Virus record (IMG/VR): IMGVR_UViG_3300044825_001658
Coordinates: 1-36,944 of that record
Reading direction: 5' to 3' (one strand)
DNA length: 36,944 bases
Source: a virus
Under the pieces are notes generated by a model that saw nothing but the letters and a program-made list of their open reading frames with translations, was not told the DNA's origin and did not search any database. Shown in pieces: positions 8,707-27,575 of the stretch (position 1 is the first letter of the stretch; every line of letters begins with the position of its first letter). Position numbers and translations under genes: made by a program.

Positions 8707-9714
8707 ATGAAAAGAGCACTTATTACAGGTATTACCGGTCAAGATGGTTCATATCTTTCAGAACTACTTTTAAGTAAGGGATATGAAGTTCATGGAACTA
8801 TTCGACGAAGTTCCTCTATTAACAATACCAGAATCAATCATCTATCAGATGACGTTGTTCTTCATCATGGAGATCTTACTGATTCGACTAATATTCTTCA
8901 CGTAATTCAAGAAGTTGAACCTACGGAAATTTATAACTTAGCAGCACAAAGTCACGTAAAAGTGTCATTCCAAATGCCAGCTTATACTGCAGAAGTTGAT
9001 GCCTTGGGAACAGTTCGTATTCTCCATAGTCTTTGTATTTTGGGGATGGAGAAAGACGTTCGTTTTTACCAAGCATCGACCTCTGAAATGTTTGGTATGG
9101 TTCAAGAAATACCTCAAAAAGAAACAACCCAATTTTATCCAAGGTCTCCATACGGAGTAGCAAAACTTTACGGTCATTGGATTACTAAGAACTATAGAGA
9201 ATCTATGGGTATTCACGCTAGTTCTGGTATTCTTTTTAATCATGAATCTCCCCGTAGAGGAGAAACTTTTGTAACTAGAAAGGTTGTTATTGGACTTTCT
9301 AAAGTAAAATCTGGTCTACTTGACTGCGTTCACTTAGGAAATATAAACGCAAAACGTGATTGGGGACATGCAAAAGATTTCGTCGATGCAATGTGGTTGA
9401 TGCTCCAACAAGATGAACCTGATGATTATGTAATTGCCACAGAAGAGCAACATTCTGTTCGTGAATTTGTTGAAAAATGTGCTCCTTATTTTGGCATGAA
9501 TATTCGTTGGGAAGGGGAAGGACTTGATGAGGTTGGTATTGATACTGTAAGTGATCGTGTAGTAATTAGAGTTTCTGAAAAATATTTCAGACCCTCTGAA
9601 GTTGATACCTTAATTGGAGATTCTACTAAGGCTAGAGAGAAACTTGGGTGGGAACCAAAAATTAGTTTTGACGAACTTGTTAGAGATATGTGTTTAAATG
9701 AACAGCGGTTTTGA
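8707..9714 (+). CDS. gmd: GDP-mannose 4,6-dehydratase
   Basis: A 335-aa extended SDR enzyme that converts GDP-D-mannose to GDP-4-keto-6-deoxy-D-mannose, the entry point to GDP-fucose, GDP-perosamine and GDP-colitose. The NADP-binding loop [10 protein letters not shown] is at residues 8-17. The active site is visible as STSEMFG and YxxxK in [27 protein letters not shown] is a family signature. Length is close to the family norm. It heads the operon right after its promoter and is followed by an enzyme that probably uses its product. It looks complete. Confidence 0.96.
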
Positions 9715-9730
9715 TGGGGGAATATAAAAT

Positions 9731-10894
9731 ATGTATTGGCCTTTAATGAAAGATACGATCACTTTTACTGATCGTCTAAAAATGGCAAAATTTGTCCTCT
9801 TTACGAGTCGTCTTACAAATGGACCAAAAGTAAGAGAGTTTGAAAACCAATGGTCCAATTGGTTGGGATGTGAATATTCATTGTATGTGTCGTCTGGAAG
9901 CACAGCAAATTCTCTTTTAATATCTTCTGTAAAAGAACTTTACGGATTGAGTGATGGTGATAAAGTCATTGTTCCTGCCTGCACTTGGGTTACAAATATT
10001 GCTCCAGTAATTCAATCTGGACTGACTCCTATTTTTTGTGATGTAAATCTCAAGAATTTTAGTTTTGATGAAGATAATTTGCAGTATATTGCAAAAGAAC
10101 ACCCAGATGTAAAAGCAATCTTTATTACGCACCTTCTAGGCATTTCTGCAAATGTTGAGAAGTATAAAGAGTTATTTCCCAACGCATTAATACTAGAGGA
10201 TATTTGCGAATCACATGGTGTAGAAAGCAACCAAGGCATTCGTAGAGGGAAAGATTCTCTAGGGTCTACTTTTAGTTTTTACTTCGGGCATCATATGACT
10301 ACCATTGAAGGTGGTATGGTTTGTACTAATAATAAAGATTTGTATGAACTAATGAGAATGAAACGTAGTCATGGAATGGCAAGAGAATCAAGTCCAGATC
10401 GATTCAAATATTATGTTGAAGAAAATCCTGATATTTCCAAACAGTTTCTTTTTATGACTGATGGTTATAACTTTAGAAATCATGAAATTTGTGCGGTTCT
10501 GGGTCTATCACAGTTAAAGAGACTGAATGAAATGATTGAAATTCGTAGGAGAAATTATAAAGATTTTTTCCTTTCGATCTCAAAAAATTCTCATAAATTT
10601 TATGTTCCAGAATATAAACCTGGAAACAGTAGTTTTTGTTTTCCAATCATTTGCAAGGATCCAAAAAACGTAAATAGACTCAAAGAAATTTTTGATTCTA
10701 AAGGAATAGAGCACCGTCCTATTGTTAGTGGAAATCTTTTAAGACATCCCGCCTTTAGGAAATATGAAGTTTTTAGTGAAAAAGAAAATCTAAACGTAGA
10801 AATTTTACATACAAGTGGTGTTTATGTTGGAAACAATCACTTTGTTACTCCAAACCAAATGAAAGTATTGTCCAGTATACTTGACAACATTTGA
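9731..10894 (+). CDS. ColD-like GDP-4-keto-6-deoxymannose 3-dehydratase (PLP enzyme with His for Lys)
   Basis: A 387-aa member of the DegT/DnrJ/EryC1 fold. The usual Schiff-base lysine is replaced by histidine in FSFYFGHHMTTIEGGM; by my count the second His is residue 188. ColD, the 3-dehydratase of GDP-colitose synthesis, also carries His at 188 and is about 388 aa long, so this is probably a dehydratase rather than an aminotransferase. VSSGSTANSL is the phosphate-binding loop. Placed after gmd, it would remove the 3-hydroxyl to give GDP-4-keto-3,6-dideoxymannose. A ribosome site (GGGGGAA) precedes the ATG. Confidence 0.85.
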   Translation: MYWPLMKDTITFTDRLKMAKFVLFTSRLTNGPKVREFENQWSNWLGCEYSLYVSSGSTANSLLISSVKELYGLSDGDKVIVPACTWVTNIAPVIQSGLTPIFCDVNLKNFSFDEDNLQYIAKEHPDVKAIFITHLLGISANVEKYKELFPNALILEDICESHGVESNQGIRRGKDSLGSTFSFYFGHHMTTIEGGMVCTNNKDLYELMRMKRSHGMARESSPDRFKYYVEENPDISKQFLFMTDGYNFRNHEICAVLGLSQLKRLNEMIEIRRRNYKDFFLSISKNSHKFYVPEYKPGNSSFCFPIICKDPKNVNRLKEIFDSKGIEHRPIVSGNLLRHPAFRKYEVFSEKENLNVEILHTSGVYVGNNHFVTPNQMKVLSSILDNI

Positions 10895-10932
10895 ATCATT
10901 AAATATACTTAAATTAAAGTGGAGGTTTATTA

Positions 10933-12000
10933 ATGTCTGAAAAACAAAAAACAGCTCTTGTGTGTGGTGCTGGTGGATTTATCGGCAGTTACATGGTAAG
11001 AAAATTGCGTGAAGAGGGATATTGGGTGCGTGGAGTTGATCTAAAGTTCCCCGAATTCTCTGAAACTGCGGCAAATGAATTCATTCGCGGCGATCTAACT
11101 GATCAAATTTTTACCGAAAAGGTAGTTCAATTTAAAGGTTATGCTGAGAATTACTATCACTTCGTCTCATCAAAATATATTGAAACTTTTGATGAGATCT
11201 ATCAGTTTGCCGCTGATATGGGTGGTGCTGGATATATTTTTAGTGGAGATCATGATGCAGACGTAATGCATAATTCCGCTCTTATTAATTTGAATATTTT
11301 GGATTCAGTAAGGAACCTAAATGACTTTACTGGCACTAATAAGACTAAAATTTTCTATTCATCTTCTGCTTGCATGTATCCAGAATACGCTCAAATGGAT
11401 GTGAATAATCCGGGACTTAGGGAATCTGATGCTTATCCTGCAGGACCTGACTCTGAATATGGTTGGGAAAAACTTTTTTCGGAACGTCTTTATCTTTCTT
11501 ATAGTCGCAATTATGGAATTCCTGTAAGGATTGCTCGTTACCATAACATTTTTGGACCTGAGGGAACATGGACTGGTGGTAAGGAAAAGTCTCCCGCCGC
11601 TATGTGCCGCAAAGTAGCAGAACTTCCTCTCACTGGAGGTACTATTGATATCTGGGGCGATGGGGAACAGACTCGTTCATTCCTCTACATCGATGAATGT
11701 ATTGAAGCAACTCGTCGCTTAATGAAATCTAATTTTGAAGGACCAGTAAACATTGGGTCTGAAGAAATGGTAACTATTAATCAACTTGCAGACACTGCTG
11801 CAAAAGTATCTGGTAAAAATGTAGAGAAGAATCATATTGATGGACCTCTCGGAGTTCGTGGTCGTAACTCAAATAACGATCTTATTCGTGAAAAACTTGG
11901 TTGGGATTATTCCCAAACTCTTGAAGAGGGGATTCGTAAAACATATGAGTGGATTAATAATCAAGTATGTAAAGATGTTATAATGCATCATCCTGTTTGA
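10933..12000 (+). CDS. GDP-mannose 3,5-epimerase-like SDR
   Basis: A 355-aa extended SDR. It closely follows the pattern of GDP-mannose 3,5-epimerases: NAD loop GAGGFIGSYM, then QFAADMGGAGYIFSG, SSSACMYPEY, the catalytic tyrosine and lysine in DSEYGWEKL, RYHNIFGPEGTWTGGKEKSPAA, and the C-terminal GVRGRNSNNDLI. Such enzymes make GDP-L-galactose and GDP-L-gulose from GDP-mannose. In this operon it could instead set the L-configuration of the dideoxy sugar made by the two genes before it, as ColC does. GTGGAGG at 10919 is a good ribosome site. Confidence 0.9.
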   Translation: MSEKQKTALVCGAGGFIGSYMVRKLREEGYWVRGVDLKFPEFSETAANEFIRGDLTDQIFTEKVVQFKGYAENYYHFVSSKYIETFDEIYQFAADMGGAGYIFSGDHDADVMHNSALINLNILDSVRNLNDFTGTNKTKIFYSSSACMYPEYAQMDVNNPGLRESDAYPAGPDSEYGWEKLFSERLYLSYSRNYGIPVRIARYHNIFGPEGTWTGGKEKSPAAMCRKVAELPLTGGTIDIWGDGEQTRSFLYIDECIEATRRLMKSNFEGPVNIGSEEMVTINQLADTAAKVSGKNVEKNHIDGPLGVRGRNSNNDLIREKLGWDYSQTLEEGIRKTYEWINNQVCKDVIMHHPV

Positions 12001-12896: not shown

Positions 12897-13813
12897 TAAG
12901 AGAAATAACACACGAAGAAACCATTAATTTTGATAAAACTCTTTTTCAAAAAGAAAACTGGTATTTGATGTGTTGGGGTATGGGAGATGCTACTGCGGCT
13001 TCTCTATTCTTGGAATCAAGATCTCCTGTTCCTTATAAAATACTTTGTCAAAAAAGAATATTTAATGGCATTAAATTTATTTTTGATAATTATGTACCAT
13101 CTCCGCATAAGTGTTTGGAGATTGTCGTTTATCCAGACGATTTTCAAAATTTTAAGGGATATCCTATAGACCAGGAAGAAGTATTAATGTCTTGCAATGG
13201 ATTTTATCCACAAGATCCTACCATAGTTCAAAACGCTCATACTTATGGTAGATTAAAGGTCGCGCACATGCCATTCAAGGATTGGGACTATTGTAATGAT
13301 ATTCATAGAACTGGAATTTTAGAAAAAATTTACAGTTACGATTTAAATTCTATAAAGGACATTGAAGAAAAAACCTGCATACTTTTTCCAGAAAGGGGTG
13401 ATAGTTATCAACTTAATGATTCTTTTTGGCAAAACATTGTTGATAAAATGCAGGAGAAGGGATATAAGGTTATTGTAAACATGACTAAAAAAACCAATGT
13501 CTTCAAAAACCAAAAAACCTTTTCTGGCACCGAACCATTAGATAAGTATGAATTGCAAGATCTATTAGATTATGTTGTGAGACATAAAAATCTTGTAATA
13601 GTAGGACAGTGTTCTGGTATTTTTGATCTTTTCAAATATTTAAGTTGTCTTAAATTAATGTTTTTTGTTGACTATGAAGATCCAAACATGCCCGATCCAA
13701 CAAGAGCTCTTTATGACTATTGTAAGTTGGGTGAAGGTCCCTTTACCAAAAACCTTATAGATATTAAGATATCAAAGTTTGATATTAAACAATTGGATTT
13801 GATCGTACCATGA
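12884..13813 (+). CDS. Putative glycosyltransferase of unknown family
   Basis: A 309-aa protein with a two-domain GT-B-like layout. The N-terminal section contains WYLMCWGMGDATAASLFLES; a second domain starts at CILFPERGDSYQ, followed by GYKVIVNM and later LVIVGQCSGIFDLFKYL, which resembles the C-terminal nucleotide-binding part of GT9-type enzymes. No DxD motif typical of GT-A enzymes stands out. Overlaps both neighbours (13 and 4 bases), so it is translated as part of the operon. Function assigned from context only. Confidence 0.5.
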   Translation: MSIVIREITHEETINFDKTLFQKENWYLMCWGMGDATAASLFLESRSPVPYKILCQKRIFNGIKFIFDNYVPSPHKCLEIVVYPDDFQNFKGYPIDQEEVLMSCNGFYPQDPTIVQNAHTYGRLKVAHMPFKDWDYCNDIHRTGILEKIYSYDLNSIKDIEEKTCILFPERGDSYQLNDSFWQNIVDKMQEKGYKVIVNMTKKTNVFKNQKTFSGTEPLDKYELQDLLDYVVRHKNLVIVGQCSGIFDLFKYLSCLKLMFFVDYEDPNMPDPTRALYDYCKLGEGPFTKNLIDIKISKFDIKQLDLIVP

Positions 13814-14613
13814 AAACAAAATTTAATCTTGTTGGCAATACTTTTACGCACCTTACAAACGGAAATAAAGGATACTCAGTTCACGGTAAAGAGTCTAAGT
13901 ATATCGAATGGGTAAAGGATGGAAGTGGAGAAGTAACTTTTTATATTGATAGTACTCTTGGTCAAGCAGAGTTTGATGAAGTTCAGGGTCCTAAGTATGG
14001 ATGGCTTTTGGAATCTAGATATATCACTCCTCAAATTGTAGATGCGGTCAAAATGTTTCCTGAAAAATATTTGGAAACATTTGATGCCATCTTTACTCAT
14101 AATCAAGAACTTTTAAAAATAGATCCAAAATTTAAGTGGTGCCCTGCTCAAGGATTTTGGATTAAAGAACCTAAGATTTATGAGAAAACTAAGATGATTT
14201 CTATGATTTCATCTAACAAGACTATGTGTGAGGGACACAAACTTCGCCTTGAATGGGTAGAAAGATTGTGGGGGCAGGTTGATATGTATGGTAGAGGATT
14301 CAAAGAAATTTCAAACAAAGAAGATGGTCTCTGTGATTACATGTTCTCTGTTGCAATCGAAAACGGTCAATACGAAACTTATTTCACAGAGAAACTTTTA
14401 GATTGTTTTGCAACTGGTACTATTCCAGTTTATCTTGGTGCTCCTGATATTGGTGATTACTTTAATAAAGATGGTATTATTGATCTTACTGATGAGTTTG
14501 AAGTATCAGATGAAATTTATTACAGTAAGATGGATGCTATAAAAGAAAATCTTGAGAAAGCGAAAGAAATGGAAATTTTGGAAGACTATATCTATATGAG
14601 GTACTTCTCATGA
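13810..14613 (+). CDS. GT10-family (alpha-1,3-fucosyltransferase-like) glycosyltransferase
   Basis: A 267-aa protein. The C-terminal half has the GT10 signature: MISSNKTMCEGHKLRLEW, then VDMYGRG, YMFSVAIENGQYETYFTEKL and TGTIPVYLGAPDIGDYF. GT10 enzymes take GDP-fucose or related GDP-6-deoxy sugars, which fits the GDP-sugar enzymes at the head of the operon. It would be a cytoplasmic enzyme acting on a lipid-linked or LPS-like acceptor. ATGA overlaps on both sides. Confidence 0.88.
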   Translation: MKTKFNLVGNTFTHLTNGNKGYSVHGKESKYIEWVKDGSGEVTFYIDSTLGQAEFDEVQGPKYGWLLESRYITPQIVDAVKMFPEKYLETFDAIFTHNQELLKIDPKFKWCPAQGFWIKEPKIYEKTKMISMISSNKTMCEGHKLRLEWVERLWGQVDMYGRGFKEISNKEDGLCDYMFSVAIENGQYETYFTEKLLDCFATGTIPVYLGAPDIGDYFNKDGIIDLTDEFEVSDEIYYSKMDAIKENLEKAKEMEILEDYIYMRYFS

Positions 14614-16635: not shown

Positions 16636-17943
16636 ATGAGCAACATTAACAGTTTAATTAAAGATTTTCTTGGAAATCTTTCTTCTACTGAAGAAAATCT
16701 TTTCCCATATCTTGCTAACAGTGGAGAATTTACTCCTGGAAAATCTCCTGTTTATTATTCTGGACCATATTGGACCAATGATGAGATTGAGGTTATTCTA
16801 AAATCTTTTCTTGCCGGAAAATGGCTTGCGTCTGGTGAAGAAGTTAATAAATTTGAGGTTAAATTTTCCAAGAAGTTTAATAAGAAGCATTCTTTGATGG
16901 TGAACTCTGGCAGTTCAGCAAACTTGATTATGTTTTCTGCACTCAAGCAAAGGTTTGGATGGCAAGATGGTGATGAAATCATTGTGTCTTGCGTTGGATT
17001 TCCTACAACTATTGCTCCTATTGTTCAGTGTGGACTGAAACCCGTTTTTGTTGATATTGATTTTAGTGATCTTAATTGGGATATTAGTGAGATTGAAGAT
17101 AAAATTACCACTCGTACTCGTGGTATTATTTCTTCTCCTGTTCTTGGTAATCCTTATGATTATGATCAGATAGTTGATATTTGCGAAAGGAATAGGATTT
17201 ATTTGATTGCTGATAATTGCGATTCTCTTGGAAGTAAGTGGGAGGAAAATTATCTCACAGATAAGGCAATTGCTGCATCTTGTTCTTTTTATCCTGCTCA
17301 CCATATTTGTACTGGTGAAGGTGGAATGGTATCTAGTGATGATGAAGAACTAATCGCTATTGCCCGAAGTCTCGCTTGGTGGGGGCGTGATTGTTATTGT
17401 GTTGGCGCACAAAATCTTCTTTCATGTGGAGTTTGTGGCAAGAGATTTGATAAATGGATTGAAAGGTATGATGGTATTATTGATCATAAGTATGTCTATA
17501 GTCAAATGGGATATAATCTAAAACCAATGGACTTTCAGGGTGCTATTGGTTCTGTTCAGATTGAAAAATTTGATGAGATTCACTACCATCGAAGAATGAA
17601 TAAGACTCTAATTCAGGAACACTTTGAAAAGATTCCTGGTGTTCGTAGCGTTAATGAACTTCCTAAAGCAGAAGCAAGTTGGTTTGGTGTTCCTATTATT
17701 TGTGATAGTAAAGAAACAAAGAATAAACTAACTCAACATTTAGAATCAAATAAAGTTCAAACAAGAAACTATTTTGCAGGAAATATTCTAATGCATCCTG
17801 GATATAGTCACTTGGATTACTATAAGAACTATCCAAACGCTTGTAAGGTTCTTGACCTTGTTTTCTTTGTTGGATGTTCTCCTACGATCACAGAGGAAAT
17901 GATTAACTATATTGGAACAGTAACGTCTTCTTTTGAAAAATGA
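16636..17943 (+). CDS. rfbH: RfbH/E1-like NDP-4-keto-6-deoxysugar 3-dehydratase (PMP and [2Fe-2S])
   Basis: A 435-aa enzyme matching the 3-dehydratase of 3,6-dideoxyhexose synthesis (about 437 aa). The Schiff-base lysine is replaced by His in SFYPAHHICTGEGG (H222-H223). The Fe-S cysteines are visible: C195, then C253 and C255 after exactly 57 intervening residues as in the family, then C264 and C267. It removes the C3 hydroxyl with electrons from a reductase. The 4,6-dehydratase and the E3 reductase that normally serve it are not in this window. Second deoxygenating PLP enzyme of this operon, alongside the ColD-like one. Confidence 0.93.
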   Translation: MSNINSLIKDFLGNLSSTEENLFPYLANSGEFTPGKSPVYYSGPYWTNDEIEVILKSFLAGKWLASGEEVNKFEVKFSKKFNKKHSLMVNSGSSANLIMFSALKQRFGWQDGDEIIVSCVGFPTTIAPIVQCGLKPVFVDIDFSDLNWDISEIEDKITTRTRGIISSPVLGNPYDYDQIVDICERNRIYLIADNCDSLGSKWEENYLTDKAIAASCSFYPAHHICTGEGGMVSSDDEELIAIARSLAWWGRDCYCVGAQNLLSCGVCGKRFDKWIERYDGIIDHKYVYSQMGYNLKPMDFQGAIGSVQIEKFDEIHYHRRMNKTLIQEHFEKIPGVRSVNELPKAEASWFGVPIICDSKETKNKLTQHLESNKVQTRNYFAGNILMHPGYSHLDYYKNYPNACKVLDLVFFVGCSPTITEEMINYIGTVTSSFEK

Positions 17944-19625
17944 GAGTAGCAGATTATATTATCGATCAAATTTATAAAACTGGGTGTGAGCATATCTTTC
18001 TCGTAACTGGTGGTGGTGCAATGTATTTAAATGATGCTATTGCTGCTCATGGAAAGATTAAACCAATCTGTAATCATCATGAACAAGCATCTGCTATGGG
18101 TGCAGTTGCCTATGCAAAATACAATAATAGTATAGGTGCTGTTTGTTTGACTACAGGATGTGGTGGAACAAATGCGATCACTGGACTTCTCGATGCTTGG
18201 CAAGATAGTGTTCCTGTAATTTTTGTTTCTGGTAATGTGAATCGGGCACATATGGCGTCCACTGGTGTTAGGAATCTTGGTGTTCAAGAAGCAAATATTA
18301 TTGATATCGTAAAACCAATTACGAAATATTCTGTGGTTGTGGAGAATCCGGAAGAAATTGATGGTATTCTCCAAAAGGCTATTTCTATTGCAACTTCTGG
18401 TCGTCCTGGTCCTGTTTGGATTGACGTTCCTATGGATGTGCAGGGTTCTCCTTGTTTTAGTATTGAAGAGCAAATTAGAACAGCGGAAAGACCATTAATA
18501 CTTGCTGGAAACGGTATTAATTGTGCGAATGCAAAACTTGCCTTTAGAGAATTTGTACGTAAAACAAATATTCCAGTTGTAACTTCTTACAATGGTGTTG
18601 ATTTAATTCAATCTGATAATTCGAATTTTGTAGGAAGAGTTGGTATCAAGGGAACCCGAGCAGGTAATTTTGCAATGCAGAATTGTGATTTACTACTTGT
18701 AATTGGTTGCCGTTTACCTGTTCCTGTTACTGGATATGACTATTCTACTTTTGCTAGAGAAGCAAAGGTGGTCGTTGTTGATATTGATGAAGAGGAACAT
18801 TCAAAGAATACTGTAAAAATTGATAAGGTCATTCATTCTGATGCAAAAGAATTTTTACAAAAAAATATCTTTAACAGAAGTAGAACCGAATGGAACGAAA
18901 CATGTCTTCGTTGGAGAAGTAAATGGCCTATTTGCCCAGAAAAAAATCCATCCGAAAATGTAGACCTATATTACTTTACACATTGCCTAAACAAACTTAA
19001 AAGATTTGATGATGTTGTAATTTCAGATGCTGGGTCTGCATACTATGTCTGCTCTCAAGCAACTGGAATTAAAGACAATCAAAGATATATTACTTCCAGT
19101 GCTCAAGCAGAAATGGGATTTACTATTCCTGCTTGTATTGGCGCTGCTTTTGCAAAAGATTCTGATGTAATTGGAGTCACTGGTGATGGTTCTTTCATGA
19201 TGAATCTTCAAGAACTTCAAACCATTGCTCATTATCAACTTCCTATCAAACTGTTTGTATGGAATAATGATGGGTATCTCTCTATTAGAACTACTCAGAA
19301 GAAATTCTTTGAAGGAAGAGAAATTGGTACTGATCCAGAAAGTGGTGTATCTATTCCAAATATCCGTAAAGTAGTTGAAAGTTTTGGAATTGAATATGCT
19401 TATGCTGATGCTGAAGGATTGGAAGATGCAATCAAATACACTTTAGATTATGATGGACCAATTGTATGTGAAGTTATTTGTGAGAAGTGGCAAGAAGTTG
19501 TACCAACTCTTATGGGCAAGAAAAATGATGATGGAACTATCAGTGCAAAACCTTTGGAAGATATGTATCCTTTCTTGTCTAGAGAAGAGTTTTATGGTAA
19601 TATGATAATTAACCCCCTAGATTAA
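17940..19625 (+). CDS. ThDP-dependent acetolactate-synthase-like enzyme
   Basis: A 561-aa thiamine-diphosphate enzyme. The proton-relay glutamate is E48 (CNHHEQASAMGAVAYAK), and the ThDP-binding motif GDGSFMMN ... FVWNNDGY lies near residue 420. The three-domain layout is that of acetolactate synthase. Directly after an RfbH-like gene (ATGA overlap), the closest functional precedent is YerE, which adds a two-carbon unit from pyruvate to CDP-3,6-dideoxy-4-ketoglucose in yersiniose synthesis. Acetolactate production for valine or pantothenate is the alternative, made interesting by the adjacent PanB. FAD use cannot be judged by eye. Confidence 0.87.
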   Translation: MRVADYIIDQIYKTGCEHIFLVTGGGAMYLNDAIAAHGKIKPICNHHEQASAMGAVAYAKYNNSIGAVCLTTGCGGTNAITGLLDAWQDSVPVIFVSGNVNRAHMASTGVRNLGVQEANIIDIVKPITKYSVVVENPEEIDGILQKAISIATSGRPGPVWIDVPMDVQGSPCFSIEEQIRTAERPLILAGNGINCANAKLAFREFVRKTNIPVVTSYNGVDLIQSDNSNFVGRVGIKGTRAGNFAMQNCDLLLVIGCRLPVPVTGYDYSTFAREAKVVVVDIDEEEHSKNTVKIDKVIHSDAKEFLQKNIFNRSRTEWNETCLRWRSKWPICPEKNPSENVDLYYFTHCLNKLKRFDDVVISDAGSAYYVCSQATGIKDNQRYITSSAQAEMGFTIPACIGAAFAKDSDVIGVTGDGSFMMNLQELQTIAHYQLPIKLFVWNNDGYLSIRTTQKKFFEGREIGTDPESGVSIPNIRKVVESFGIEYAYADAEGLEDAIKYTLDYDGPIVCEVICEKWQEVVPTLMGKKNDDGTISAKPLEDMYPFLSREEFYGNMIINPLD

Positions 19626-19626
19626 T

Positions 19627-20493
19627 ATGCCTGCTGATAATAAAGATAAGGTAACTATTTTAAAGTTGCAAAAGCAAAAACAGAATAAAGTAAAGACTGT
19701 AGGAGTTACAGCATACGATTATCCACAAGCACTTATGGCAGATAATGCTGGTGTTGATTGGATTCTTGTTGGTGACTCTCTCGGTATGACAACATTGGGA
19801 TATAAAACAACGATCCCAGTGACTATGGATGATATGTTACGTTCTGCTAAAGCAGTTTCGCGTGGTGTTAATCGCGCATTTACTGTTGGAGATCTTCCTT
19901 ATATGTCGTACCAAATCTCAAATGAGGATGCAGTAACTAACGCTGGTGCCTTCATTCAAGCAGGAATGGATGCAGTTAAGGTAGAAGGTTGCATGGTAGA
20001 AAGAATCAAAGCAATTTGTGATGCTGGTATTATGGTGATGAGTCATCTTGGTTTGACTCCACACACTCGTGCTAAATTAGGTGGTTATCGAGTTCAAGGA
20101 AAGACCGCAGATCAAGCAAAGGTCATTCTTGACCAAGCACTTCGTCTTCAGGATGCTGGATGTTCTTTTCTTCTTCTTGAAGCAATGCCAAGAGAGTCTG
20201 CTGCAATGATTGCAGAATCTCTTGAAATTCCAGTGTATGGAATTGGCGCTGGTGACAAAGTAGATGGTCAATTAGTTATTATGCACGACTTGATTGGATT
20301 GTTTTGGGAGTTCAAATCTAAATTTGTAAAACGTTATTGTGAGGCGGGGCAACTTATTCAGTCTGCTCTTACTGATTATGTAAATGAAGTTCGAGATCTT
20401 CAGTTTCCTGCACAAGAAAATTTTTATGAAATTAAAGATGACGAACTTGAAAAACTATTAAGTGATTCTAGTTGGAAGTATGAAAAAGGGTAA
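19627..20493 (+). CDS. panB: 3-methyl-2-oxobutanoate hydroxymethyltransferase (PanB)
   Basis: A 288-aa enzyme that matches E. coli PanB from end to end. Residues for metal and substrate are all kept: aspartates in VGDSLGMT and VGDLPYMSY, Lys and Glu in AVKVEG, and the catalytic Glu in LLEAMPRES; GIGAGDKVDGQ and MHDLIG are also family marks. PanB adds a hydroxymethyl group from methylene-tetrahydrofolate to a 2-keto acid, normally the first step to pantothenate. In a phage sugar operon between a ThDP enzyme and an SDR it more likely modifies a keto-acid used for a sugar branch, but that is inference. Confidence 0.95.
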   Translation: MPADNKDKVTILKLQKQKQNKVKTVGVTAYDYPQALMADNAGVDWILVGDSLGMTTLGYKTTIPVTMDDMLRSAKAVSRGVNRAFTVGDLPYMSYQISNEDAVTNAGAFIQAGMDAVKVEGCMVERIKAICDAGIMVMSHLGLTPHTRAKLGGYRVQGKTADQAKVILDQALRLQDAGCSFLLLEAMPRESAAMIAESLEIPVYGIGAGDKVDGQLVIMHDLIGLFWEFKSKFVKRYCEAGQLIQSALTDYVNEVRDLQFPAQENFYEIKDDELEKLLSDSSWKYEKG

Positions 20494-21316
20494 AATTTTA
20501 TTTACTGGTGGCAATGGATTTATTGGACGCCAGATTGTTCCTCTTTTGGAAAATGAAGGGTGGGATGTTGTAAGACCTAGATCTTATCAAGTTAGGTTAG
20601 AAGTCACTAGTGAAGTTGATTCATTATTCAATGGTGAAAAATATGATGCAATTATACACGGCGCTATTGTTGGTGGCCGTAGAGAAATTGAAGACGATCC
20701 AAGGGTCTTTTATAAAAATATGTCAATGTTTGAAAATATTTTCAGACATGTTGAAAATACCAAACTTTTTATCAATTTAGATAGTGGTGCTTCTTATGGT
20801 CGTCCAGCACCTGTAGAGCAACCATCTCCACAGCAATTTGGGTTAATTATTCCTGGAGATAATTATGGATTCTCAAAATATTGTATAGCAAAAAGAGTTT
20901 TAAATCACCCTAAGGGAATTAATCTTCGCGTGTTTGGATGCTTTGGTCCTTATGAGGAATCAAGTAGATTTTTTAATACAAACATTAATAACTATATCAA
21001 TAAAAGAAACATAGAAATTTTTAAAGACAGAAAAATGGATTTTATCTATGCTAATGATTTGTATAAAATTATTAGTTATTTCTTGTCTATAGGCAAAAAA
21101 TCAATTGTTAATGACATTAATTGTGTGTATAAAGAAAAATATTATCTAAGTGAAATTGCTGATATGATTAATAATCTTTCTGATCATAAAGTAGAAATTA
21201 TTAAACAAGGTAATTATGAAGAATATCCATATTGTGGATATCCTAATAGTATTGATTGTATAAAGTATGAGGGATTAGAAAAAGGAATCAGAGATTGTTA
21301 TGACTATTACAAATAA
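20480..21316 (+). CDS. NAD-dependent epimerase/dehydratase-family (SDR) protein
   Basis: A 278-aa extended SDR. I chose ATG 20480, giving MKKGKILFTGGNGFIGRQ with the dinucleotide-binding loop at the N-terminus; a GTG 18 bases upstream adds only six residues. Active site candidates are the serine in NLDSGASYG and YxxxK in NYGFSKYCIAKR. It overlaps panB by 14 bases. As the last enzyme of the RfbH-ThDP-PanB run, it could reduce the keto group of the final sugar, as the reductases of dideoxysugar pathways do. Confidence 0.82.
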   Translation: MKKGKILFTGGNGFIGRQIVPLLENEGWDVVRPRSYQVRLEVTSEVDSLFNGEKYDAIIHGAIVGGRREIEDDPRVFYKNMSMFENIFRHVENTKLFINLDSGASYGRPAPVEQPSPQQFGLIIPGDNYGFSKYCIAKRVLNHPKGINLRVFGCFGPYEESSRFFNTNINNYINKRNIEIFKDRKMDFIYANDLYKIISYFLSIGKKSIVNDINCVYKEKYYLSEIADMINNLSDHKVEIIKQGNYEEYPYCGYPNSIDCIKYEGLEKGIRDCYDYYK

Positions 21317-22409: not shown

Positions 22410-23150
22410 ATGAACCGAATTTCTGACTATAAAAATTTAGAAAATAGAATAGTAAAATGGTTAAAAAATTATGTTATTGAACATAATATTAAATCATTTG
22501 TAGTTGGCGTTTCTGGAGGTATTGATTCCGCAGTTTCTTCAACTCTTGCTGCTAAGACTGGACTTCCTGTTTATGCTCTCGGAATGCCAATTCTTCAGAA
22601 AGAAGAACAGGAATCTCTCTCTGACGCACACCTTAGTTGGTTACAATCAAACTTTAGTAATGTGATTGTACAAAAGTATGATCTCACTAAAGTGTTTGAG
22701 ACATTTAAGTTCACGATGAGAGAATTTGGTACTGATACTCACGCTCTTGCTAATACACGTTCTCGTATTCGTATGGTGACTCTTTATCAAGTTGCTACTT
22801 CAGTTGGTGGTATTGTTGTTGGTACTGGCAATAAGGTTGAAGATTATGGCGTAGGATTTTATACTAAATATGGTGACGGTGGAGTTGATATTGCTCCTAT
22901 CGCAGATCTCTATAAGACTGAAGTTTGGGAACTTGGTAGGCATTTTGGTGTAGATCAACGCATTATTGATGCCTCTCCTACTGATGGTCTTTGGGATGAT
23001 GGAAGAACTGATGAAGATCAACTCGGTGCTTCCTATGTTGAACTGGAAGAAGCTATGGAGACTGGATCTGGTCCAGGACTTGAAGCACTTATTAAGTTCA
23101 GTCAAATGAATCAACATAAAATGAATCCTATTCCTACATTCAAACTATGA
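22410..23150 (+). CDS. nadE: NH3-dependent NAD synthetase
   Basis: A 246-aa enzyme that makes NAD from nicotinate adenine dinucleotide, ATP and ammonia. The PP-loop SGGIDSAV is at about residues 35-42. GTGNKVEDYGVGFYTKYGDGG (two halves of the deamido-NAD site), IADLYKTEVW and PTDGLWDDGRTDEDQLG are family signatures. There is no glutaminase domain, so free ammonia is used. Placing it between sugar genes suggests either support for NAD-dependent enzymes of the block or general NAD supply in the infected cell. ATGA overlap with the next gene. Confidence 0.94.
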   Translation: MNRISDYKNLENRIVKWLKNYVIEHNIKSFVVGVSGGIDSAVSSTLAAKTGLPVYALGMPILQKEEQESLSDAHLSWLQSNFSNVIVQKYDLTKVFETFKFTMREFGTDTHALANTRSRIRMVTLYQVATSVGGIVVGTGNKVEDYGVGFYTKYGDGGVDIAPIADLYKTEVWELGRHFGVDQRIIDASPTDGLWDDGRTDEDQLGASYVELEEAMETGSGPGLEALIKFSQMNQHKMNPIPTFKL

Positions 23151-24301
23151 AAATTGGCGTAATTGGTGCTGGTAGACTTGGTATTTGTTTTGCTCTGTTA
23201 TGCGAAGCAGCAGGGTACGACGTTCTTGTTTCAGATATCCGAGAGGATTATGTAAATGATTTGAACCAAAGAAAGATCCAGACACATGAACCAGAGGTAG
23301 AAAATCTCCTCAAGGTTGCTAAAAACTTTAGAGCAACAACAAATAATAAAGAAGTTATTGATGAATGTGATTTAATTTACACTCTTGTAGCAACTCCTTC
23401 TCTTGAAGATGGATCTTATGATGTATCTGCTGTATGGAGAGTTGTTGATGATTTTCAAAACGTAATAAAGAAAAAATATTTTGTTGTCGGATGTACTACT
23501 AATCCAGGAGACTGTAATTCATTTAAAAAACAACTTCCTTCAAATGTGAAAGTTTTTTATAATCCCGAATTTATCGCACAAGGTTCGATTATTAATGATC
23601 TTCGTACTGCCGATATGGTTCTCCTTGGAGCAGATCCTTTTTCAAATAATGATAACGTTATTGCTGATATTAGGAAATTGTATGAAAAGATTCAAACGAC
23701 TCGTGCGATTGTTTGTTCAATGTCAACTACTGCAGCAGAAATTACTAAGATTGCTATAAATTGCTTTTTAACAACTAAAATTAGTTATGCAAATATGCTT
23801 GGCGATGTTCTTCATCATGCTGGATGTGGCGATGAAGTTAACTCTGTTTTAACTGCAGTAGGAACTGATAGTAGAATTGGTAGAAAATATCTTGGATATG
23901 GATTTGGATATGGCGGTCCGTGTCTTCCACGAGATAATCGATCTTTCGCTACGTTTGCTAAAAAAGTTGGATTGGAATATAATCTTGGAACAGTAACTGA
24001 TGAGATCAATAATCAACATGCCAAGTTTGTGTGTGAATATTTTGAAACGATGAATTCAAATAAAAAACCTTTTTACTTTGACTCTATTACTTACAAAAAG
24101 GGAACAGATATTCTTACAGAAAGTCAACAATATCGTTTATGTTTAGATCTTCTTGATAGAGGTTATACAGTTTATATCCATAATGATAAAAAAGTTACGG
24201 ATCAAATCTATGATTATATGATTACTTCATATGGAGATCGCGTTAAATTTGTAGATAAAGAAGAGAATATCACAGAACCATATTTTGTTGTAAACTTATG
24301 A
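23147..24301 (+). CDS. UDP-glucose/GDP-mannose dehydrogenase family protein
   Basis: A 384-aa dehydrogenase that would oxidise an NDP-hexose to the uronic acid. The N-terminal NAD loop is KIGVIGAGRLGICFALLCE, the central domain contains VGCTTNPGD and YNPEFIAQGS, and the catalytic cysteine is in FGYGGPCLPRD. The C-terminal UDP-binding domain (KPFYFDSITYKKGTDILTES) is present. UDP-glucose 6-dehydrogenase is the likeliest activity, but the family covers several sugars. Coupled to nadE and to the following GT11 gene by ATGA overlaps; it would use NAD that NadE makes. Confidence 0.9.
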   Translation: MKIGVIGAGRLGICFALLCEAAGYDVLVSDIREDYVNDLNQRKIQTHEPEVENLLKVAKNFRATTNNKEVIDECDLIYTLVATPSLEDGSYDVSAVWRVVDDFQNVIKKKYFVVGCTTNPGDCNSFKKQLPSNVKVFYNPEFIAQGSIINDLRTADMVLLGADPFSNNDNVIADIRKLYEKIQTTRAIVCSMSTTAAEITKIAINCFLTTKISYANMLGDVLHHAGCGDEVNSVLTAVGTDSRIGRKYLGYGFGYGGPCLPRDNRSFATFAKKVGLEYNLGTVTDEINNQHAKFVCEYFETMNSNKKPFYFDSITYKKGTDILTESQQYRLCLDLLDRGYTVYIHNDKKVTDQIYDYMITSYGDRVKFVDKEENITEPYFVVNL

Positions 24302-25167
24302 TTGGATATAATAGACTTGGTACAAACGGTCGTCTGGGAAATCAGATGTTCCAATATGCAGCATTGAGAGGTATTGCCTCAAATAATAACCTGGATTGGT
24401 GCATTCCTTCAGAGGATACTCCAACTTATGCCAACTATGGGATTTTTGATGCTTTTAAACTTAAAAATCTCAAGAATACTGGTCTTGTAAATGGACCAAC
24501 ACACGATGAACCTGGATTTGAGTTTGATGAAGAACTCTTTAATAATTGTCCAGATAATGTAAACATTGATGGATATCGTCAATCGGAAAAATACTTCAAA
24601 CATATTGAAGAATCGATTCGTGAAGACTATGAATTTAAAGATGATATTCATGAAACTTGTAACGAATTCATGAGTCAGTTCAATGGAAACATTGTTCTTC
24701 TTCATATTCGTAGAGGTGATAATGTAGGTCGTCCAGACTGGTATCCAATGCCAGTTGTGGATCACTATGAGTATCTACTCGAAAAACATTTTACTGATGA
24801 TCAACCAGTTTTAATCTGCTCTGATGATCTTGATTGGGTAAAAGAACAAAAACTATTTCAAAGTGATCGCTTTTATCTCTCTGAGACCAGAGTTTATTAT
24901 TCAAAAGAAGTACTAAATGGTGCGGGTAAAATGGAAAAATCTCTTGTTCCATTTTATGATCTATGTATGATGTCAATGTGCAGCGATGCTATCATTGCAA
25001 ATAGTTCTCTTTCTTGGTGGGGTGCTTGGTTACAGAAGAATCCAAACAAAAAAGTTATCACACAAAGTCCTTGGTTTGGAGAAAGACTTTCTTTTAACAA
25101 TACTAAAGATTTAATTCCAGAGTCTTGGATTGTTGAACCAATTCCTAATGAGAGGATTCAAAGATGA
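24298..25167 (+). CDS. GT11-family (alpha-1,2-fucosyltransferase-like) glycosyltransferase, copy 1
   Basis: A 289-aa protein with GT11 motifs: GRLGNQMFQYAALRGIA at the N-terminus, HIRRGD at about residue 140 for GDP-sugar binding, and IANSSLSWWGAWL near the C-terminus. It would transfer fucose or a related GDP-6-deoxy sugar, in line with the Gmd branch. Paralogous to the gene at 25967. ATGA overlaps on both sides. Confidence 0.9.
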   Translation: MIGYNRLGTNGRLGNQMFQYAALRGIASNNNLDWCIPSEDTPTYANYGIFDAFKLKNLKNTGLVNGPTHDEPGFEFDEELFNNCPDNVNIDGYRQSEKYFKHIEESIREDYEFKDDIHETCNEFMSQFNGNIVLLHIRRGDNVGRPDWYPMPVVDHYEYLLEKHFTDDQPVLICSDDLDWVKEQKLFQSDRFYLSETRVYYSKEVLNGAGKMEKSLVPFYDLCMMSMCSDAIIANSSLSWWGAWLQKNPNKKVITQSPWFGERLSFNNTKDLIPESWIVEPIPNERIQR

Positions 25168-25970
25168 TGGATCTAACATTTCTCATTCCAACTAGAATAG
25201 AGACAGAAGATAGATTAAGAAACATTATATCAACAGTCTCTTACCTTCTTAGGCATGTACCAGCAAAAGTGATTGTAAAGGAAGTTTCTCATCATCCAAC
25301 TTTTAAATTTAGAGCAATTCCTGAGATTAGGAAATATACAGATACTTCTAATCTGACTTATCTCTACGAAGAAACTCAAGAAACTTTGTTTTGTAAAAGT
25401 AAAGTTCTTAATGATTTGATCGTTGCTGCAGATACTAAAGTGGTTGCAAATTATGATGCAGATTGTATTCTTCCTTTAGAGTCTTATCATCAAGCATATG
25501 ATGCAATTAATTCTGATCAAGCAGATATAGTGTATCCTTATGGGTGTGGAGTTTATCAGTGGCGTGCTGAATACAATCAAAATATTTATGAAGAGTTTGT
25601 AAATCAACTTGATGTATCTGTTCTTGATAAGAAGAAAACACTTTCTAACTCAACTATTGGATGGACTCAATTTGTAAATCGACAAAAATATATTGATTCC
25701 TATATGATGAATGAAAACTTCATTTCTTGGGGATGTGAGGATGATGAGTTTTATTATCGTATGAGTGTTCTCGAAAATCGTATTGGTAGAATTGATAGTT
25801 ATGTCTATCATTTAGAACATTCAAGGACTCATAATTCTTGGTTTAGTAACCCTAATTTTAATAACAACTGGACTCTCTGGAATACTATTAAGACGTTTGA
25901 CAAAGAACAGTTGGTAGAGTATTATAAAAATCAAGACTATCTAAAAATACGCAAAGAACAAATGAAATGA
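25164..25970 (+). CDS. GT-A-type glycosyltransferase
   Basis: A 268-aa protein. LTFLIPTRIETEDRLRNI starts a GT2-like nucleotide-binding fold, NYDADCILPLESYHQAYD carries the DxD motif, and ISWGCEDDEFYYRMSVL matches the 'W-G-xEDDE' motif of galactosyltransferase-like (GT7 C-terminal) domains. It lies between two GT11 copies and is coupled to both. Sugar unknown. Confidence 0.8.
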   Translation: MMDLTFLIPTRIETEDRLRNIISTVSYLLRHVPAKVIVKEVSHHPTFKFRAIPEIRKYTDTSNLTYLYEETQETLFCKSKVLNDLIVAADTKVVANYDADCILPLESYHQAYDAINSDQADIVYPYGCGVYQWRAEYNQNIYEEFVNQLDVSVLDKKKTLSNSTIGWTQFVNRQKYIDSYMMNENFISWGCEDDEFYYRMSVLENRIGRIDSYVYHLEHSRTHNSWFSNPNFNNNWTLWNTIKTFDKEQLVEYYKNQDYLKIRKEQMK

Positions 25971-26791
25971 TAGGATTTAATGCACTTGGGCGAATGGGAA
26001 GATTTGCCAATCAGATGTTTCAATATGCATCACTAAAAGGTATTGCGAGAAATGTTGGAGTAGATATTTGTATTCCAAATCATACTCAAGTAGTTGATGA
26101 TGGAATTGGCAATAAACTCAGAACAGAACTCTTCGATTCTTTTGATTTGAGAGTAAATATTGGACTCTTAAACAACGGACATGCTCCAGTTGTAAATGAA
26201 AGATTTTTTCATTTTGACGAAGAACTTTTTAGTCTTTGTCCAGATCATGTAACTCTTCAAGGTTATTTTCAATCAGAAAAATATTTTAAGAACATTGAAC
26301 AAGAGATTCGTGAGGACTTCACTTTTAAAGACGAGGTTCTAAAACCTTGTAAAGAAATGATCTCTTCCGTAGAAAATCCAATCGCTCTTCATATTCGCAG
26401 AACAGATTATCTCACAAATAGTGAAAATCATTTCAATCTTCCTCTTGAATATTATAATGCAGCACTAAAACATTTTGACTCTGATAGAAATGTTATCGTT
26501 TTTTCTGATGATCCTGTTTGGTGCAAAGAGCAAGACTTATTTTCAGATGATCGTTTTATGATTTCTGAAAATACTGATAACAGAGTTGATCTTTGTTTGA
26601 TGTCTCTTTGTAGTGACTTTGTTATTGCAAACTCTTCTTTTTCTTGGTGGGGAGCATGGCTTTCTCAAAATAAAAACAAAAAAGTAATTGCACCTGTCCA
26701 GTGGTTTGGAAAAACTGGATATACAAAAGATCATGATACTAAAGATTTAATTCCCGATGACTGGATCAGAATTTGTGATGGACAAAAATAA
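25967..26791 (+). CDS. GT11-family glycosyltransferase, copy 2
   Basis: A 274-aa paralogue of the gene at 24298: GRFANQMFQYASLKGIA, GYFQSEKYFKNIE, HIRRTDY and IANSSFSWWGAWL. The motif variants (RFANQ for RLGNQ, RRTD for RRGD) suggest a different donor or acceptor preference. It may have arisen by duplication. Overlaps the GT25-like gene by 14 bases. Confidence 0.9.
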   Translation: MIGFNALGRMGRFANQMFQYASLKGIARNVGVDICIPNHTQVVDDGIGNKLRTELFDSFDLRVNIGLLNNGHAPVVNERFFHFDEELFSLCPDHVTLQGYFQSEKYFKNIEQEIREDFTFKDEVLKPCKEMISSVENPIALHIRRTDYLTNSENHFNLPLEYYNAALKHFDSDRNVIVFSDDPVWCKEQDLFSDDRFMISENTDNRVDLCLMSLCSDFVIANSSFSWWGAWLSQNKNKKVIAPVQWFGKTGYTKDHDTKDLIPDDWIRICDGQK

Positions 26792-27575
26792 GTCCTCTTA
26801 TAAACTTAAAGGAATTCCTCATATTTACTGGATTAATCTTGATTCAGATACTCATCGTCGTGAGTATATGGAACAACAATTTAAATATTGGGAAATTGAA
26901 GATCATACTCGTATTTCTGGATACGATGGCAGAGAAGATGATGTATCTAGTTACCTTAAAGGCAGAATTCCAGATAATGTGTCACAAGGTGAATTAGGTT
27001 GTTGTATGTCACATTTAAAAGCAATTAAGCATTTTTATGAAAATAGTGATGCTGATTATTGTTTAATTCTAGAAGATGATGTAAATTTTGATATTGTAAA
27101 ACATTGGAACTTCACTTGGAATGATTTCTTTGCAGAAGTTCCATATGATTATGACTGTGTTCAGTTAACTACAATTTGCACAGGAGATATTCATGTAAAA
27201 TTGCATCTTAAATTTATTAATGACTTTTCTGCTGCAATATATTTGATTACTAGGCATCATGCTGCAAAAATGATGAAGTATCATATTCGTGGAGATAAGT
27301 ACAAACTTGATAATGGAGTAAAACCAAGAGCAGTTTCTGAAGATACTATCTTAGAAACTGGTAAAACATATACAATTCCATTGTTTTTATATAACCTAGA
27401 AATGGGATCTGCAATCCATCCTGAACATCTTGGTATTTTTCATAAAGCACCTCACGACGCTTTGTTGAATTTCTGGGAGCAAAATGGAGTTGATATTAAT
27501 ATCAAAGAATATATGAATTATGATCCTTATTTGGGGCGAATAACTCAGAATTCTGCAGCACAACAAAGTGCTTGA
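26778..27575 (+). CDS. GT25-family LPS glycosyltransferase
   Basis: A 265-aa protein. ATG 26778 gives MDKNKSSYKLKGIPHIYWINLDSDTHRRE. GT25 signatures follow: ISGYDG, LGCCMSHLKAIKHF, and CLILEDDVNFD with the metal-binding EDD. GT25 enzymes add hexoses to LPS or capsule glycans in Gram-negative bacteria. This is the last gene of the block; the promoter at 27572 overlaps its stop. Confidence 0.88.
   Translation: MDKNKSSYKLKGIPHIYWINLDSDTHRREYMEQQFKYWEIEDHTRISGYDGREDDVSSYLKGRIPDNVSQGELGCCMSHLKAIKHFYENSDADYCLILEDDVNFDIVKHWNFTWNDFFAEVPYDYDCVQLTTICTGDIHVKLHLKFINDFSAAIYLITRHHAAKMMKYHIRGDKYKLDNGVKPRAVSEDTILETGKTYTIPLFLYNLEMGSAIHPEHLGIFHKAPHDALLNFWEQNGVDINIKEYMNYDPYLGRITQNSAAQQSA

Follow-up and report, generated by a model that had tools for sequence, protein, structure and literature searches.

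The window analyzed here is the whole 36,944-base stretch of IMG/VR virus record IMGVR_UViG_3300044825_001658, a cyanophage record that carries psbA together with phage endolysin and endonuclease VII families. It contains four intact, coupled genes running in one direction, an arrangement reported in the initial annotation and confirmed by ORF positions, strand and Pfam families. In order, all on the + strand, these encode a predicted RfbH/E1-like Fe-S, PMP-type NDP-4-keto-6-deoxyhexose 3-dehydratase (16636..17943; 435 aa), a predicted YerE-like ThDP carboligase of type A (17940..19625; 561 aa), a PanB-family hydroxymethyltransferase of a virus-only clade (19627..20493; 288 aa) and an extended SDR (20480..21316). 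The RfbH-like and ThDP ORFs share a 4-nt overlap, and PanB starts 1 nt past the ThDP stop. The SDR ORF is listed from a GTG at 20462, but the alternative ATG at 20480, which gives MKKGKILFTGGNG, is the likelier start. Pfam families across the cluster are DegT (257 bits), three ThDP domains, Pantoate_transf (325 bits) and Epimerase (82.5 bits, the SDR).

Further sugar genes lie on the same strand. A GDP-mannose 4,6-dehydratase (8707..9714; TIGR01472 523.9 bits, cut-off 415) is a possible source of a GDP-4-keto-6-deoxysugar. It is followed by a second dideoxysugar enzyme, a ColD-like 3-dehydratase (9731..10894) with His at the PLP-lysine site and the ColD family as best PDB match (2gms, 192 bits), by an NAD-dependent epimerase/reductase resembling GDP-fucose synthase (10933..12000; NCBIfam GDPFucSynFcl 99 bits, below cut-off), and by a GT10 fucosyltransferase-like glycosyltransferase (13810..14613; PF00852 42 bits). 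Downstream, four glycosyltransferase genes assigned by Pfam to GT11, GT7C, GT11 and GT25 (24298..27575) may attach the cluster's sugars to a glycan.

The RfbH-like protein has E1 dehydrase 3bcx as its best PDB match (236 bits, against 175 bits for ColD). His replaces the PLP lysine, and all four cysteines aligned with those of 3bcx, which we take to have an Fe-S role in that enzyme, are kept. We use only the name RfbH-like because the NCBIfam RfbH equivalog score (373.6 bits) lies under the cut-off of 423; the predicted product of the protein is the 3,6-dideoxy-4-ketosugar acceptor. We regard His at the PLP-lysine site as a feature of sugar 3-dehydratases within DegT. Every readable DegT site near the viral genes is His (66 sites from the PanB scan, 106 from the ThDP scan and 11 from the HpcH scan), as are 12 of 12 readable bacterial sites; these counts partly repeat the same records and exclude ORFs of up to 250 aa and those scoring below 100 bits, and the DegT HMM behind them also recovered a Lys-type DegT. 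A CDP carrier, assumed by analogy with yersiniose, did not find similar backing: no RfbF exceeded its cut-off on 26 viral records, which are mostly fragments and whose hosts could supply RfbF, so that a CDP-sugar route through RfbH stays hypothetical.

Among solved structures, the window ThDP enzyme scores highest against 8rph (377 bits), which is JanthE from Janthinobacterium sp. HH01 (PMC12188165), and at most 243 bits against acetolactate synthases. JanthE is also the top PDB match for one enzyme from each of three viral ThDP lineages. The window enzyme has GDG in place of the JanthE CDG motif and an identity to JanthE of about 34%. None of the AHAS equivalog cut-offs was reached among the 25 of 53 families listed, the best score being 357.5 against 738. 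By sequence the enzyme is JanthE- or YerE-like rather than AHAS-like. Its predicted reaction is the decarboxylation of a 4-hydroxy-2-oxo acid with transfer of the acyl group to a 4-ketosugar.

The PanB-family protein scores 316.4 with one curated NCBIfam PanB model (cut-off 272) and 285.3 with another (cut-off 207.6), and its sequence alone is therefore compatible with ketopantoate synthesis. Alignment to E. coli PanB bears out the earlier statement that all catalytic residues are kept (D45, S46, D84, K112, E114, H136 and E181); they are invariant in 82 aligned rows, two of which are the window itself (one under the name L081) and some of which are near-identical contigs. The E. coli pocket residues I202, I212 and V214 become I, L and I in all of these rows, changes that are conservative and do not in themselves prove a new substrate. 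Strong constraint is evident from a dN/dS of 0.038-0.061 between the window gene and five relatives. At H142, R144 and V213 (E. coli numbering), viral PanBs are distinguished from 27 bacterial PanBs. A bacterial source of this clade was sought in bacterial contigs, and the loci listed proved to be canonical PanBs: position 142 is Gln in 77 of 77 readable PanBs among at least 80 bacterial loci listed, and none of the 80 matches listed had a ThDP match nearby. Since the scan used a motif common to all PanBs, a bacterial cluster of PanB with a YerE-like enzyme may exist unseen. No relative with at least 60% identity was found in the isolate phages or plasmids searched. The panB of 'Microcystis phage MaAM05' was considered as a phage precedent and set aside, as its flanking panC, sufBCD and pxpA look bacterial-chromosomal.

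A ThDP gene adjoins PanB in all 80 viral PanB relatives kept from the PanB scan. When five scans are pooled, PanB is adjacent to 78 of 113 distinct viral ThDP genes, on the same strand in 78 of 78. Two gene orders and three ThDP lineages are represented among the pairs. On the PanB tree, the type of ThDP partner changes 11 times among viral rows if two loci with partial ThDP reads (L039 and L074) are counted as B2, or 12 times if they are counted as type A; two loci entered as PanB before type-A ThDP in the 113-gene count are presumed to be this pair, not relabeled there. The unbroken adjacency and the low dN/dS place the pairing beyond chance. The proposal that all four genes form one pathway unit stood only in part. 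The PanB-ThDP pair is constant, whereas the RfbH gene sometimes lies several genes off or is replaced by a ColD-like dehydratase, and an SDR lies within three genes of ThDP at 43 of 47 type-A and 11 of 13 type-B1 PanB loci but at 0 of 18 type-B2 loci. What is conserved as a unit is therefore the PanB-ThDP pair, not the whole four-gene set. A rival view, with PanB as a mere passenger or as an enzyme of folate salvage that hitch-hikes in a glycan cluster, could draw on the folate-cleaving side activity that the title of PMC4814558 ascribes to PanB; given an adjacency kept across both orders and all three lineages, and the purifying selection on the gene, we give this explanation hardly any credence.

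Viral type-A ThDP genes without PanB often have an HpcH/HpaI-family protein in the PanB slot. Among the 113 viral ThDP genes, for which only PanB and HpcH were tallied and NeuB matches below 200 aa were dropped, HpcH/HpaI is adjacent to 9 and within three genes of 5; 15 have neither a PanB nor an HpcH match, all of them away from contig ends. The NeuB label on small viral ORFs was discarded, as most of these matches came from the cupin region of a NeuB model made from bacterial sequences; of 72 such ORFs, 50 are below 200 aa. All five viral HpcH/HpaI members match PF03328 at E 0.01 or better (best 1e-12), and a model with a pLDDT of 85.8 has HpaI pyruvate aldolases as its top Foldseek matches (TM about 0.5-0.56). 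The HpcH/HpaI and DmpG families act on pyruvate. In bacteria, PanB was found in none of 20 flanks of YerE-like ThDP genes. Other 2-oxo-acid makers, namely HpcH/HpaI, 4-hydroxy-2-oxovalerate aldolase (DmpG) and NeuB, do accompany these genes. Such a maker lies within 1.5 kb at 12 of 18 YerE-like loci and at 0 of 12 lower-scoring ThDP loci (p = 3e-4), a post hoc contrast in which the contrasted loci themselves had supplied the sequences for the DmpG and NeuB models and two of the sequences in the HpcH model.

Gene neighborhood alone does not give the order of reactions, and PanB could act after the ThDP enzyme. A pyruvate-derived acetyl branch would then be attached as in yersiniose, and PanB would hydroxymethylate the alpha carbon of the resulting alpha-hydroxyketone, which on chemical reasoning is enolizable and metal-chelating. 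We consider this order improbable, since the substitutes for PanB (HpcH/HpaI, DmpG and NeuB families) yield free 2-oxo acids and PanB has kept unaltered the catalytic residues that serve a small 2-oxo acid.

The genes present, the families of their enzymes, the unfailing PanB-ThDP pairing, the His-type dehydratases and the swaps with other 2-oxo-acid makers are observed; from them we infer a pathway, including its every substrate, reaction order, nucleotide carrier and final sugar. PanB probably makes the donor 2-oxo acid from which a 3,6-dideoxy-4-ketosugar receives a hydroxyacyl branch, within a branched-sugar glycan pathway. The RfbH-like enzyme would take O-3 off an NDP-4-keto-6-deoxyhexose to give the 3,6-dideoxy-4-ketosugar. 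PanB would not feed CoA synthesis. It would hydroxymethylate a small 2-oxo acid with 5,10-methylene-THF as the one-carbon source; pyruvate is the likeliest substrate, and 4-hydroxy-2-oxobutanoate would be formed from it. The YerE/ErwE-like ThDP enzyme would decarboxylate this acid and place a 3-hydroxypropanoyl unit on C-4, which would then carry a tertiary alcohol. Reduction of either the branch ketone or the sugar is the predicted task of the SDR; acting on the branch ketone, it would give something like a 4-C-(1,3-dihydroxypropyl) branch. The product would be an NDP-activated 3,6-dideoxysugar, branched at C-4 and destined for a glycan of the host LPS or of the virion.

Donor making is the most likely role of PanB because ErwE favors 4-hydroxy-2-oxobutanoate, the product expected of PanB from pyruvate and methylene-THF; according to the cited passage of PMC12247030, the preferred donors of this characterized YerE-like enzyme are 4-hydroxy-2-oxobutanoate, -pentanoate and -hexanoate, and pyruvate is not accepted. 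The E. coli PanB has a promiscuous class II aldolase activity toward other 2-oxo acids, with a stereochemistry complementary to that of the aldolase RhmA/YfaU (PMC7610986). The suggestion that PanB supplies an unusual donor to a YerE-like enzyme gains in silico support from the adjacency in 80 of 80 relatives, the JanthE-like ThDP enzyme, the His-type DegT proteins, the donor-maker swaps in viruses and the different 2-oxo-acid makers that accompany YerE-like genes in bacteria. We put forward more tentatively the fuller reading, in which a PanB clade drawn from vitamin synthesis serves a dedicated viral one-carbon route through 4-hydroxy-2-oxobutanoate to an undescribed dideoxysugar with a C-4 dihydroxypropyl-type branch that coats host or virion. 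PanB might instead use 2-oxobutyrate in the branched-sugar pathway, or else 2-oxoisovalerate, in which case ketopantoate itself would be the donor, leading to a methyl- or dimethyl-substituted 3-hydroxyacyl branch. The PanB-family scores, a pocket still hydrophobic at 202, 212 and 214 (I/L/I in 82/82 rows) and the conversion of several longer 2-oxo acids by wild-type E. coli PanB with formaldehyde (PMC7611260) are in keeping with such substrates. We judge them unlikely, however, because the substitute aldolases (HpcH/HpaI, DmpG) belong to pyruvate-acting families and the ErwE-type donors reported in the PMC12247030 passage are the three acids named above.

Both family names are part of the valine/pantothenate route, and an acetolactate synthase with PanB could boost host pantothenate and CoA. 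Viral pantoate-transferase genes have been read in this way in oxygen-minimum-zone viruses, where the cited passage ranks them as the most abundant vitamin AMG (PMC8940887), and ilvB is filed under pantothenate, beside rfbG and rfbE, in the passage cited from PMC8226683. Viral PanB has its fold, catalytic residues and passing of the curated cut-offs in common with pantothenate PanB, but it forms a separate clade (H142, R144, V213) with a ThDP neighbor in 80/80 cases. We regard a vitamin role as very improbable, since the ThDP enzyme is JanthE-like and far under the listed AHAS equivalog cut-offs, the cluster neighbors are dehydratases, epimerases and glycosyltransferases, and HpcH/HpaI takes the place of PanB in other loci. 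PanC and KARI were each found on 0 of 26 viral records, and neither is in the window, in agreement with the initial view that a pantothenate role was the less likely. Because PanB constantly adjoins a sugar-branching enzyme, a sugar building-block role is the most likely one. Genome context favors surface-glycan chemistry over pantothenate/CoA, a matter of relevance to how phages adsorb, how superinfection is excluded and how receptors change; if the proposed one-carbon route exists, many of the panB and ilvB genes counted as 'vitamin' genes in viral metagenomes would belong to this glycan pathway.

Yersiniose synthesis in Yersinia pseudotuberculosis shares with the proposed pathway an E1/RfbH-type dehydratase, a YerE-type ThDP enzyme acting next, and a reductase. 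It differs in its pyruvate donor and two-carbon branch, and PanB is not required. In the erwiniose pathway of Pectobacterium atrosepticum, the YerE-like ErwE joins a hydroxylated 2-oxo acid to CDP-3,6-dideoxy-4-ketoglucose; the cited passage does not mention PanB (PMC12247030), whereas in the window, which is viral, PanB is the proposed donor maker. Bacterial YerE-like clusters (L352-L369) share with the viruses a 2-oxo-acid maker beside a high-scoring ThDP gene and often a His-type RfbH, but the donor maker there is HpcH/HpaI, DmpG with acetaldehyde dehydrogenase, or NeuB. One bacterial locus combines RfbF, RfbG, RfbH, HpcH/HpaI, ThDP, SDR, acetaldehyde dehydrogenase and 4-hydroxy-2-oxovalerate aldolase. 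These loci suggest that a YerE-like enzyme is often accompanied by the maker of its 2-oxo-acid donor, and the neighboring gene may therefore predict the branch. Viral PanB would add a one-carbon case and a route to predicting undescribed branched sugars.

Type-B2 ThDP loci without PanB often carry a B12 radical-SAM gene instead. By eye, such a gene is also present in at least one PanB locus (L042).

PanB and its partner, a ThDP enzyme, lie in the window among four co-directional genes on the plus strand, where the initial annotation had placed them; ORFs and Pfam families confirm the observation. The RfbH-like gene (16636-17943; Pfam DegT) overlaps the ThDP gene (17940-19625; TPP_enzyme N/M/C) by 4 nt, PanB (19627-20493; Pantoate_transf) follows after a gap of 1 nt, and the SDR gene (likely ATG start at 20480, end at 21316; Epimerase) may encode a yersiniose-type reductase. 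The surrounding sugar cluster holds a GDP-mannose 4,6-dehydratase (GMD; 523.9 bits, cut-off 415), a ColD-like dehydratase, an Fcl-like epimerase and glycosyltransferases of families GT8, GT10, GT11, GT7C and GT25. Since this 36,944-base IMG/VR virus fragment also carries psbA, ribonucleotide reductase, endolysin and endonuclease VII families, we regard it as a cyanophage.

In viruses, PanB and ThDP form one unit. Of the four coupled genes noted at first, the conserved part is narrowed to this pair. A PanB scan of viral contigs returned 102 relatives, and in all 80 loci kept for analysis a ThDP gene adjoins PanB, upstream in ThDP lineages A (the window's own) and B1 and downstream in B2. Scans with three ThDP alignments added 128 loci; PanB is present in 94 of them and missing from 34. 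Five scans, pooled and dereplicated at 98%, gave 113 distinct viral ThDP genes: PanB is adjacent to 78, always on the same strand and with gaps of -101 to +101 nt (mostly below 20), and within three genes of 2 more; an HpcH/HpaI-family gene is adjacent to 9 and within three genes of 5; 15 have neither, and 4 lie at contig ends, shares that are not unbiased frequencies because three kinds of bait were pooled. In a quick tree, 54 viral PanBs grouped together against 27 bacterial ones (SH-aLRT 100), and the ThDP partner type has to change 11 times across the viral rows (12 times until two labels were corrected). PanB is the more constrained partner (dN/dS 0.038-0.061, against 0.069-0.206 for ThDP, in five comparisons with the window).

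The RfbH-like protein has the E1 dehydrase 3bcx as its top solved-structure match (236 bits; ColD, 175), and in alignment it keeps the four cysteines of 3bcx and its His at the PLP-lysine site. Its score of 373.6 is below the NCBIfam RfbH cut-off of 423, so we name it RfbH-like rather than a certified member. The window ThDP best matches 8rph (377 bits; runner-up 5ahk, annotated as acetolactate synthase II, 243), identified in PMC12188165 as JanthE, a YerE-like enzyme; 8rph is also the top match for one viral enzyme from each of the two other lineages (328 versus 301 and 304 versus 272 bits). Window PanB exceeds both curated PanB cut-offs, and an alignment of viral rows bears out the claim that all catalytic residues are retained. 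Judged by its residues elsewhere, viral PanB is a changed PanB: position 142 is Gln in 27/27 bacterial rows and His in 82/82 viral rows, position 144 (Val in E. coli) varies among V, A, I, T and L in the bacterial rows and is Arg in 81 of 82 viral rows, and position 213 is Leu in 25/27 bacterial and Val in 82/82 viral rows. The pocket residues I202, I212 and V214 of E. coli PanB are I, L and I in the viral proteins.

A viral pantoate transferase has been read, in PMC8940887, as boosting pantothenate and CoA, and PanB and ThDP might likewise serve that supply. Arguing against this, PanC and ketol-acid reductoisomerase are absent from all 26 viral records (an absence weakened by their fragmentary state), the ThDP is JanthE-like and the neighbours are glycan genes, in keeping with the initial view that a pantothenate role is less likely. 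Among the open-licence papers listed by the literature searches, none ties PanB to branched sugars or YerE-like enzymes. The panB of 'Microcystis phage MaAM05' (MW495066.1, 257432-270160) was set aside, as its flanks (panC, sufBCD, pxpA) look bacterial-chromosomal, not phage.

The genes found in place of PanB point to a probable job for it as a maker of 2-oxo acids. Several type-A loci that lack PanB have, directly 3' of ThDP, a gene whose product matches HpcH/HpaI aldolase (26.5 bits, cut-off 25), as do 5/5 members of this viral replacement family (best 1e-12). An AlphaFold2 model (pLDDT 85.8) most resembles HpaI, a class II pyruvate aldolase (E 2.7e-8, TM about 0.5-0.56). A scan with this family found 31 viral loci, about half with type-A ThDP nearby and the rest in other contexts. 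Among 398 genomes of Pseudomonadota, the phylum of a Gilliamella genome, 18 had ThDP matches of 540-919 bits, the next score after a gap being 405. The flanks of these 18 and the next two contained 4-hydroxy-2-oxovalerate aldolase with acetaldehyde dehydrogenase, HpcH/HpaI aldolase and NeuB-family synthase, and PanB in 0/20. The aldolase, dehydrogenase and synthase families seen there form or process 2-oxo acids, with pyruvate or PEP as the starting point. Such a gene lies within 1.5 kb of 12/18 high-scoring and 0/12 lower-scoring bacterial ThDP loci (Fisher p = 3e-4), a post hoc contrast, since the DmpG and NeuB models were built from the same loci and the HpcH model includes two of their sequences. 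One bacterial cluster, L355, reads RfbF (474 bits, cut-off 300), RfbG (518, 278), RfbH-like, HpcH/HpaI, ThDP, SDR, acetaldehyde dehydrogenase and 4-hydroxy-2-oxovalerate aldolase (449, 229). Three others (L357, L358, L359) have a conserved protein of ~541 aa beside a high-scoring YerE-like ThDP, with no Pfam match in the one member scanned. Where type-B2 loci lack PanB, a B12-binding radical-SAM gene is present, mostly along with a GHMP kinase; this gene was assigned by similarity cluster in L270-L276 and L288 (Pfam on L275 only) and by eye in L042, where it occurs alongside PanB.

In the DegT family, Lys at the PLP site marks aminotransferases and His 3-dehydratases. A DegT gene is present in 70 of 78 dereplicated PanB-adjacent loci, some of the other 8 being short contigs. 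Of 68 DegT ORFs in the PanB-scan loci, 66 were readable and all 66 have His, as do both window proteins; over all loci the counts were 66/66, 106/106, 11/11 and 12/12, some records being counted in more than one scan. The same model also caught a Lys-type protein (bacterial locus L108, 194 bits). Because the readable sites near PanB and ThDP are all His, a sugar acceptor for the ThDP enzyme is implied by these sequences. The His-type proteins fall into three classes: RfbH-like, ColD-like (accompanying B2) and one more, marked by SFYASHVITAGG. This third class (SFYASH[VI]ITAGG; L031, L052, L072, L073, L078, L290) is without the E1 cysteine motif and carries the RfbH label from similarity only.

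Known chemistry of ThDP enzymes that add carbon branches fits PanB as a predicted donor maker. YerE takes pyruvate or 2-oxobutyrate. ErwE does not use pyruvate; its preferred donors are 4-hydroxy-2-oxobutanoate, -pentanoate or -hexanoate (PMC12247030); JanthE, with benzaldehyde, accepts 4-hydroxy-2-oxovalerate (PMC12188165). E. coli PanB is promiscuous: with cobalt it acts as a class II aldolase that adds formaldehyde to several different 2-oxo acids. Its scope shifts in variants at I202, I212 and V214, and the RhmA/YfaU aldolase catalyses this addition with the opposite stereochemical outcome (PMC7610986, PMC7611260, PMC10127515). Given the ErwE and JanthE donor range and this promiscuity, the simplest reading, with substrates and product predicted, is that PanB would convert pyruvate and methylene-THF to 4-hydroxy-2-oxobutanoate, ThDP would transfer its C3 hydroxyacyl unit to a 4-ketosugar, and the SDR would then reduce the product. 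Comparative evidence supports the central idea of the initial annotation, that PanB is a predicted donor maker for a YerE-like ThDP enzyme. RfbF exceeded its cut-off on 0/26 viral records, so CDP, if it is the nucleotide carrier, may come from the host; GDP (given the GMD and ColD-like genes in the window) and dTDP are the other candidates, an RmlB-like gene lying beside RfbH in locus L044 (301 bits versus 365).

Elsewhere in the window, the GMD, ColD-like and Fcl-like genes (8707-12000) resemble a second dideoxysugar route, of GDP-colitose type, and a NadE, NAD synthase-like gene (22410-23150; TIGR00552 177.8 bits, cut-off 63.7) lies within the sugar cluster. An SLH/OprB outer-membrane porin (27670-29139; iron uptake porin por_somb 305 bits, cut-off 100) stands beside PstS (29286-30251), a nutrient-uptake pair that looks uncommon for a cyanophage, and a class II aldolase/adducin-family gene (35946-36611; PF00596, 100 bits) follows psbA and endonuclease VII.
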